A DNA stretch of 64,000 bases from NCBI RefSeq assembly GCF_004118155.1, contig NZ_SAIQ01000001.1, positions 1,364,001 to 1,428,000 of the forward strand, read 5' to 3'. The notes beneath the pieces were generated by a model. It did no database searches, had not been told where the DNA came from, and worked only from the letters and a program-made list of their open reading frames with translations. How positions within the stretch are numbered: position 1 is the first letter of the stretch; each line of letters begins with the position of its first letter. Positions 32,178 to 58,316 of the stretch are shown in pieces. The translations under genes and the position numbers were made by a program. This stretch comes from Edaphocola flava. Lineage in GTDB: Bacteria; Bacteroidota; Bacteroidia; Chitinophagales; Chitinophagaceae.

Positions 32178-32590
32178 ACTGAGTATCCTCTTTTAGGAAA
32201 CAAAGCTCTACATTATTTCTTTGATTTCATTTTGTATTATTGCTGGCTAAAATCAATGTGTTTGCCGTTCAGAAACCAGAACGCTGTACTCAGACAGTGG
32301 TTTGTAACTCTATCGACCGAGCCAATGATTTTTGTAACGCCGGATTTATAAGGCCTTTTAAGCGATCTGTACCTGTACAGATCGCTTATTGTTTTCATCA
32401 CAGCGATAGTCATTTTGGAGTGGAGATGCGATCGTTGAGCACCGAACGCATCACACGTTAAGCTCAGACGATCAATGCACGCAACGGTACAAAATGGCGG
32501 TGCTCTGCAATCGCCTTGATGAAAACAAAGGCATTTTTGGTCCTTTTGTTGCCTGGACAAAAGGACGAATAAAAGAGTTACCTACATGCG
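32178..32590 (-). repeat. Intergenic repeat element, copy A (reverse orientation)
   Basis: This stretch of about 413 bp between convergent genes matches, in reverse orientation, the region 57853-58316. From the CGCATGTAGG end (32590) the two agree over long runs: CTTTTGTCC, AAAAGGACCAAAAATGCC, TTTGTTTTCATCAAGG, CGTGCATTGATCG, and GGCTCGGTCGATAGAGTT. Internal features are a GTCCTTTTGT/ACAAAAGGAC hairpin and a central palindrome with 13-bp arms (32360-32372 and 32375-32387). A short open frame (32237-32560) is inside but looks non-functional. It lies 12 bp from the terminator of the gene to its right. Probably non-coding. Confidence 0.78.
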
Positions 32591-32602
32591 TATAGTCAGT
32601 TA

Positions 32603-44969: not shown

Positions 44970-45042
44970 GCCGCTTTAGCTCAGTTGGTAGAGCAGCTGA
45001 TTTGTAATCAGCAGGTCGCTGGTTCAAGTCCGGCAAGCGGCT
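44970..45042 (+). tRNA. tRNA-Thr (anticodon UGU)
   Basis: This 73-nt sequence folds into a cloverleaf: acceptor GCCGCTT/AAGCGGC, D-arm with TAGCTCAGTTGGTAGAGC, anticodon stem GCTGA/TCAGC with loop TTTGTAA (anticodon at 45003-45005), and T-arm GGTTCAAGTCC. The 3' CCA is not encoded, so the CCA-adding enzyme (61.2 kb) is needed. First gene of the tRNA-tuf cluster. Confidence 0.95.
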
Positions 45043-45097
45043 CTTATTGAGGCGAAATTTCGAATGTGTTTATTCATGTTTTAAGCTAGTCTCACTA

Positions 45098-45180
45098 GGG
45101 TAGGTGGCCGAGTGGTTAAAGGCGGCAGACTGTAAATCTGCTCACTCACGTGTACGGAGGTTCGAATCCTTCCCTGCCCA
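45098..45180 (+). tRNA. tRNA-Tyr (anticodon GUA)
   Basis: 83 nt with a long variable arm, as expected for Tyr. The acceptor GGGTAGG pairs with CCTGCCC (one G-U). The anticodon loop is CTGTAAA (anticodon at 45132-45134). The T-arm is GGTTCGAATCC. CCA is not encoded. The anticodon loop G34 is a target for queuosine, for which queE is present at 7.1 kb. Confidence 0.95.
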
Positions 45181-45218
45181 CATTTTTTATTTAGCGAATA
45201 GCACTCTTTAGTGCTTTT

Positions 45219-45291
45219 GCGGGAGTAGCTCAATTGGTAGAGCGACAGCCTTCCAAGCTGTAGGTCGCGAGTTCGAGACTCGTCTCCCGCT
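45219..45291 (+). tRNA. tRNA-Gly (anticodon UCC)
   Basis: 73 nt with acceptor GCGGGAG/CTCCCGC, D-arm TAGCTCAATTGGTAGAGC, anticodon stem ACAGC/GCTGT with loop CTTCCAA (anticodon at 45252-45254) and T-arm GAGTTCGAGACTC. CCA is not encoded. Confidence 0.95.
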
Positions 45292-45394
45292 CATTATTGT
45301 AGTCTGAGATGAATTGTCGTATGGTATGTTAATAGTTGTTCACAACGGCAGCCCTACCGCAGTTCATTTTTTTTGACAATAAATCCAACAACAA

Positions 45395-45466
<72 letters not shown>

Positions 45467-57833: not shown

Positions 57834-57852
57834 ATTGCTACTACTTTCAACT

Positions 57853-58316
57853 CGCATGTAGGCAACTATTTTATTCGTCCTTTTGTCCGGCAACAAAAGG
57901 ACCAAAAATGCCTTTGTTTTCATCAAGGCGATTGCGTTGCACCACCATTTTGTACCGTTGCGTGCATTGATCGTTTGAGCTTAACGTATAATGCAATCGG
58001 TGCTCAACGATCGCAGCTCCAACCAAAATTGCTATCGCTGTGATGAAAACAACAAGCGATCTGTACGGTACAGATCGCCTAAAATGGCCTTATAAATCCG
58101 GCGTTAATAAAATCATTGGCTCGGTCGATAGAGTTGCAAAGCACTGTCTGAGCGCAGCGTTCTGGATTGTGACAGACCGACGCATTGATTTAGCCAGGGA
58201 TTTATACAGCCTTGATTTTTTGGCGCTACCTTTTGCATCAAGGCAAAAGGTAGCAAATTCTAAATGGAAAATAAAGGAATAATGTAAGTCTTGTTTCCTG
58301 CAAGCGGATTCTCAGT
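57853..58316 (+). repeat. Intergenic repeat element, copy B
   Basis: This stretch of 464 bp between convergent genes is the forward copy of the element at 32178-32590, sharing long identical runs with it in reverse orientation. It contains a hairpin GTCCTTTTGT/ACAAAAGGAC (57877-57902), a palindrome GCGATCTGTAC/GTACAGATCGC (58056-58077) and a second hairpin GCTACCTTTTGC/GCAAAAGGTAGC (58225-58254). The latter and about 50 bp around it are absent from copy A. Apparent short ORFs (57564-58043, 58040-58282) are probably spurious. It ends 8 bp before the stop of the leftward C40 gene. Confidence 0.78.
58225..58254. repeat. Internal 12-bp hairpin of repeat copy B
   Basis: GCTACCTTTTGC, six bases, then GCAAAAGGTAGC: perfect inverted repeat. 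It mirrors the other end's GTCCTTTTGT/ACAAAAGGAC hairpin in its CCTTTTG core. Confidence 0.85.

Follow-up and report, generated by a model that had tools for sequence, protein, structure and literature searches.

The pair of intergenic repeats lying in opposite orientation in the 64,000-bp window (the whole stretch of Edaphocola flava DNA analysed here) represents, with a probability that we place near 0.87, two copies of a high-copy MITE family with an IS1595-type mobiliser, probably orphaned, and an interior from captured palindromic modules. In the proposed mechanism, a DDE transposase would recognise ACTGA[G/C]TATCCGC and a few further inward bases at the terminal inverted repeats, move the element and insert it at an AT-rich target of 8 bp, thereby duplicating the target; the interior most likely arose through the capture, between ends of the IS1595 type, of two oppositely oriented palindromic modules. 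The original prediction had offered either a mobile element without its own transposase or a structured RNA family, and the first of these is borne out in the form of a MITE by terminal inverted repeats, 8-bp target-site duplications, copy number, empty sites and an IS1595-type transposase elsewhere.

Copy number, ends and insertion sites

BLASTN within the window pairs positions 32243-32590 with 57853-58197 read in reverse, 313 of 349 columns (90%) being identical, so that the oppositely oriented pair first noticed from the sequence alone is real; the outer 62 columns of the alignment are 79% identical, and the three shared blocks and the outer GTTTCCT and CTCAGT motifs quoted at that time are present in both copies. 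The parts of copies A and B are given in Table 1. Copy A measures 423 bp instead of about 480 bp because its module-1 tag hairpin is missing, and copy B retains the full interior but has a decayed right end and no intact target-site duplication. Elsewhere in the window, four tRNA genes are clustered at 44970-45466.

Table 1 Features of the two MITE copies, in window positions
Feature	Position	Strand	Remarks
MITE copy A	32178..32600	+	Terminal inverted repeat pair and family alignment; site empty in E. aurantiacus
Copy A left target-site duplication TAAAACAA	32170..32177	.	
Copy A right target-site duplication TAAAACAA	32601..32608	.	Is the base of the adjoining terminator hairpin
Copy A left terminal inverted repeat ACTGAGTATCCTCTT	32178..32192	+	1 mismatch to ACTGASTATCCGCWT
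Copy A right terminal inverted repeat	32586..32600	-	Minus strand reads ACTGACTATACGCAT; 1 mismatch
Copy A module 1 long imperfect hairpin, tag hairpin deleted	32241..32355	+	Sequence; consensus fold of other copies
Copy A central small palindrome GCGATCTGTAC..GTACAGATCGC	32362..32385	+	Sequence; helix 8 of the covariation analysis
Copy A module 2 long imperfect hairpin, compensatory changes across copies	32389..32528	+	Helices 9-13, from alignment A1, which is made of copies other than A
Copy A module 2 tag hairpin GTCCTTTTG..CAAAAGGAC	32540..32566	+	Sequence; helix 15
MITE copy B	about 57843..58316	-	About 474 bp; site empty in E. aurantiacus
Copy B left terminal inverted repeat ACTGAGAATCCGCTT	58302..58316	-	1 mismatch
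Copy B module 1 tag hairpin GCTACCTTTTG..CAAAAGGTAGC	58225..58254	-	Self-palindrome in BLASTN; helix 2
Copy B module 1 long imperfect hairpin	58086..58211	-	Sequence; consensus fold
Copy B central small palindrome	58056..58078	-	Self-palindrome in BLASTN
Copy B module 2 long imperfect hairpin, bounds approximate	57912..58053	-	Sequence; consensus fold
Copy B module 2 tag hairpin	57877..57902	-	Sequence; consensus fold

Searched against its own genome (G000; 3.54 Mb, 15 contigs), copy A returned 61 matches, and at least 40 places with an identity of 85% or higher over 257-431 bp were found (40 scored of 102 candidates, the query and copy B counted). The repeat is far beyond chance; the genome-wide count that the original prediction had proposed stands far above two copies, and no already named element was matched in the data searched. 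Matches were found in 9 of 39 genomes, the window genome counted, near-full-length copies being confined to this genome, Edaphocola aurantiacus H2 (G001) and Taibaiella sp. KBW10 (G002), both of which are placed in the same genus.

Pairing of elements by profile models of both ends, within fetched loci, yielded 88 rows (51 from the window genome, 28 from E. aurantiacus and 9 from KBW10), which still contain one mis-pairing from the window genome (L081, 3295 bp). By this measure the window genome holds at least 50 elements, 31 of them 467-484 bp long. Forty-nine of the 50 span 96-515 bp and contain no transposase, and the remaining one is interrupted by another transposon; short forms of 96-220 bp retain both ends. 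One element of 515 bp, with duplication TATTATTA, has an alternative second half. Variants at L087 2047-2561, L072 2921-3315 and L075 from 2526 onward have their second half swapped for other hairpins (of the CCCTGAGGTCCTCGAAGGG and TTCTCGACTTCGCT..GAAATGACG types), which suggests cassette exchange.

The family is bounded by the inverted ends ACTGAGTATCCGCTT and ACTGACTATCCGCAT. When 30 copies were aligned with their flanks, similarity ended outside ACTGAGTATCCGCTT and ATGCGGATAGTCAGT, which are inverted repeats of one another, and ACTGASTATCCGCWT at up to two mismatches occurs at 113 sites in the window genome versus 12 for the reversed control. An exact 8-bp target-site duplication flanks 37 of the 88 rows, against 0.3% in a control of mismatched left and right flanks, and exact repeats of 4, 5, 6, 7, 9 and 10-12 bp occur in 2, 5, 1, 3, 2 and 0 rows, respectively; a first impression of a 9-bp duplication was discarded on this count by length. 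Allowing shifts of up to two bases raises the perfect duplications to 48 of 88 (control, 1.5%), leaving 40 without one. Because four ancestral insertions were counted in both species, 33 of the 37 exact duplications are independent. The duplicated target is AT-rich, beginning with T in 35 and ending with A in 29 of the 37. One perfect match to the terminal inverted repeat pattern, at G004:C9:238291, falls in an apparent coding region and was dismissed as a chance match.

The window and E. aurantiacus share synteny at 95-97% identity, and an empty-site comparison covered both window copies and a large E. aurantiacus transposon described below. At site A, E. aurantiacus has the equivalents of 32177 and 32601 directly next to each other, with a single TAAAACAA, an exact empty target; the same gap lacks the element in G002 and G003 as well. 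Site A is a textbook insertion. Site B is also empty in E. aurantiacus, the exact junction being available for site A only, as the end and duplication of copy B have decayed. Nine elements of the window genome have a counterpart at the same location among the 28 elements compared from E. aurantiacus, and each of these pairs is the same ancestral insertion; in three of the nine the lengths clearly differ (336/474, 350/305 and 372/479 bp), which is read as internal deletion.

Interior modules and genomic location

The interior has a small central palindrome flanked by two oppositely oriented modules, each of which comprises a CCTTTTG..CAAAAGG tag hairpin and a long imperfect hairpin. A covariation analysis with RNAalifold on 29 selected near-full-length copies from three species (12, 12 and 5) gave 111 consensus pairs with 98.7% of cells paired. 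Eleven of the 111 pairs are changed on both sides, compared with a mean of 3.2 in shuffled alignments (0 of 500 reaching 11) and 2-5 in slid structures, a difference to be read in the light of the relatedness among the 29 copies, which is only partly controlled and can by itself lift copies above shuffles without structure. The compensatory changes fall mostly in module 2 and its tag hairpin, and most module 1 pairs are invariant and thus uninformative either way.

Both modules also occur without MITE ends. In G004, module 1 is found in this state at three or four longer sites, of which two lie at contig ends; module 2, apart from module 1, occurs at one place in G004 and, partially, at one in G003. 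The left-end profile found no match in the examined stretches of G003, G004, G005, G011, G017 and G027. Free repeats captured between IS1595 ends would be the simplest reading of this distribution, although the short copies in G004 may be remnants of MITEs and not their precursors. An extension of the capture model, possible but with the odds well against it, would make the MITE a vehicle: two free-standing structured elements with a function of their own, as RNA or cruciform, would have been captured between IS1595 ends and spread genome-wide, their structure still being under selection after the transposase was lost from the species.

Both window copies sit in convergent gaps, as originally described. 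Among the 86 rows of up to 1000 bp (two longer rows being left out, and gene calls being ORF heuristics), 35 lie in convergent, 32 in tandem and 7 in divergent gaps, 10 lie in called ORFs and 2 are unclassifiable, compared with 53 in convergent gaps among the 728 matching target positions of the control (the window, three E. aurantiacus stretches and two from KBW10). This excess would be explained if copies are retained at sites where they do no harm. Terminator-like hairpins stand no more than 40 bp away from 26 of 49 elements in the window genome, 6 of 28 in E. aurantiacus and 2 of 9 in KBW10. The proximity to terminators that had drawn attention to both copies is true of each but not special, since it is shared by 44 of the 53 control positions that lie in convergent gaps (compared with 38 of 432 tandem and 0 of 243 divergent positions); a targeting of terminators was accordingly rejected, and the terminator neighbourhood is read as a by-product of the convergent location.

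It is unlikely that a structured RNA or cis-regulatory element maintains the copies by its function, with mobility secondary. The 111 pairs with 11 two-sided changes above shuffled and slid controls, together with the enrichment in convergent gaps, are what such an element could leave behind, but kinship among copies can produce the first, and selection against harmful insertions is equally expected to produce the second. Furthermore, a search of the whole window assigned neither repeat to an Rfam family at gathering score, and copy B, searched on its own, gave nothing below an E value of 0.08, its best match (E 0.089) being on the adjoining terminator. The structured-RNA part of the original prediction holds for a conserved, covarying interior structure, and RNA action is not supported.

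A candidate mobiliser in the IS1595 family

A MITE of this kind calls for a transposase acting on its ends, and we propose, from the similarity of ends and proteins, that the mobiliser was one clade of zinc-ribbon IS1595-family transposases, because the ends match and the end motif pairs with this enzyme clade. A longer end pattern searched across the order matched 19 of 396 genomes, three of them in the genus; outside the genus there were 22 matches in 16 genomes, a count that is meaningless because the reversed control also gave 22, and G096 and G136 alone were retained because they hold inverted pairs with exact target-site duplications. The element in the distant relative G096 (contig C33) is 2468 bp long, with identical 24-bp ends facing inward and duplication ATATCTTA, and encodes, besides small ORFs, a 314-aa protein with DDE_Tnp_IS1595 and IS1595 zinc ribbon domains.

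The match to the MITE ends is closer in E. aurantiacus, which carries an autonomous transposon of 14,678 bp (G001:C3:246386-261063; duplication TAATTGAT) whose two ends read ACTGAGTCTCCGCTTTTAGGAAACAAAG, are identical over 28 bp and match the MITE left end at 25 of the 28 positions. Its transposase, of 319 aa, is 49.5% identical to that of G096, and PF12762 and PF12760 score above cut-off in both, whereas the 17 further IS1595-domain transposases in the five genomes of the genus share 21-26% identity with the E. aurantiacus enzyme.

At an E value of 1e-50 or below, the clade is present in 7 of the 396 genomes of the order, two of which had defined the end motif. In three of the five other clade loci, the gene is flanked on either side by inverted TGACTATCCGC-like ends (0-2 mismatches); one of the three shows an exact 8-bp duplication, TTTTTTGT, and no duplication was seen at the other two, L253 and L256. 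A fourth locus, with an exact duplication, TAATTTTA, but a weaker pair of terminal inverted repeats, is only suggestive, and the fifth has a single end. Single end matches with up to two mismatches are by estimate expected about once or twice per locus, and it is the inverted pairs that count. Short elements of about 120-130 bp with similar ends also occur in further families of the order, in G136 (L184 1529-1649; exact 8-bp duplication TTATAAAA) and in a Saprospiraceae MAG contig (L109, JAEUUR010000209.1; 8-bp duplication read by eye), which makes it probable that the system extends beyond the genus.

Domain and homology searches of the genes of the window genome found no transposase of the matching clade, and because the partner clade was not found there as a gene, the MITE family is probably orphaned in this genome. 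At the locus of the 14.7-kb transposon, the unit and an adjoining MITE are absent from the window genome and the flanks join within a few bases. A relic of the large element is nonetheless present, as 240 bp of its left end at 93% identity.

The window genome does hold four other IS1595-domain (PF12762) genes, none of the matching clade, and one of them might have been thought to move the MITE in place of the E. aurantiacus clade. This is improbable, as the enzymes in question are just 21-26% identical to the clade with matching ends. The most suggestive of them, a 363-aa gene between perfect MITE ends at G000:C9:10186-14892, was rejected as the partner because it belongs to another transposon nested inside a MITE copy (L073 2746-6964), an element of 4219 bp with duplication CTATTTAT and different terminal inverted repeats, GGCATTAATATACG. 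Ends of the other three genes were not found within 1.5 kb of flank.

The REPIN possibility raised in the original prediction is wrong on the present evidence, and we regard it as very improbable that the repeats are REPIN/REP elements moved as single-stranded hairpins by a RAYT (REP-associated tyrosine transposase). Two hairpin-tagged modules in opposite orientation are superficially REPIN-like, and the window genome has one Y1_Tnp-domain gene (G000:C8:295709), but the elements have terminal inverted repeats and 8-bp target-site duplications, which are signatures of DDE transposition; HUH single-strand transposition is not known to generate such duplications. A PF01797 search, as had been advised, recovered 15 Y1_Tnp loci, and in the ten examined no RAYT was linked to the family palindrome, the best match of the family profile being at an E value of 0.28. 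The RAYT-like gene of the window genome is not flanked by the family's hairpins, and KBW10, with many elements, has no PF01797 match. A different palindrome of 47 bp, AATTGCCTGTTCTTAGTG.., lies beside the RAYT-like gene in the window genome and in E. aurantiacus (L064 1235-1281, L065 1957-2003) and is possibly the true REP of that RAYT. Finally, a single old segmental duplication of an intergenic region, which two oppositely oriented copies within 64 kb might have suggested, is ruled out by the roughly 50 genomic copies, the target-site duplications and the empty sites.

Relation to known elements and cargo of the proposed partner transposon

We found no literature on repeats in Edaphocola, and one comparison is with Cardinium, likewise a bacterium of the Bacteroidota. 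The work on its IS982-derived MITE describes a lineage-specific expansion with a parental IS, like that proposed here, but from another IS family and with the parental element intact in the same genome (PMC9769881).

IS1595-type MITEs have already been tabulated in archaea, and the kind of element is therefore already known. The MITE of Haloquadratum walsbyi, a putative ISHwa6 derivative, is listed with 165 bp, 7 copies and 8-bp direct repeats; it resembles the present family in being non-coding and IS1595-type, with 8-bp direct repeats and inverted repeats (25 bp in H. walsbyi), whereas the family described here is bacterial, from Bacteroidota, and has mostly elements of about 480 bp, about 50 copies and a palindromic composite interior (PMC3852290). 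According to two further sources, IS1595 elements usually make 8-bp duplications and have a zinc finger outside the IS1016 group (PMC8101967), and ISApl4 has AT-rich 8-bp repeats (PMC12561309). The present family shares the 8-bp target duplications, and its proposed partners have DDE_Tnp_IS1595 and a zinc finger; unlike those insertion sequences, the window elements encode no transposase, and the proposed partner ends begin with ACTGA or AATGA rather than the terminal GG of related Merlin elements (PMC8101967, PMC12561309). REPINs and the GTAG- and CGTC-tagged REPs, of which the CGTC repeats are reported from Bacteroidetes, are also high-copy palindromes, but the elements here have terminal inverted repeats, target-site duplications and no linked RAYT (PMC3733652). 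The available text of a MITE review mentions neither IS1595 nor Bacteroid- (PMC10969869).

This family provides a worked case of MITE spread and apparent orphaning in Bacteroidota. It brings together a sister species of 95-97% identity, an empty site with an exact junction, an insertion nested in one of the copies and a partner transposon that has survived, and through it the IS1595 family gains a clade that has an end motif of its own. With the interior modules one could ask what keeps palindromic repeats in the 3' intergenic regions of bacteria.

The E. aurantiacus 14.7-kb transposon (L144/L212/L214) carries a TIR-domain protein matching the PADLOC PDC-S66 and ThsB models, which suggests that an IS1595-type transposon of this size can carry a TIR-domain defence candidate. 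It also encodes a response regulator of the LuxR type and a protein of 966 aa whose match to a Por-secretion tail is below cut-off.
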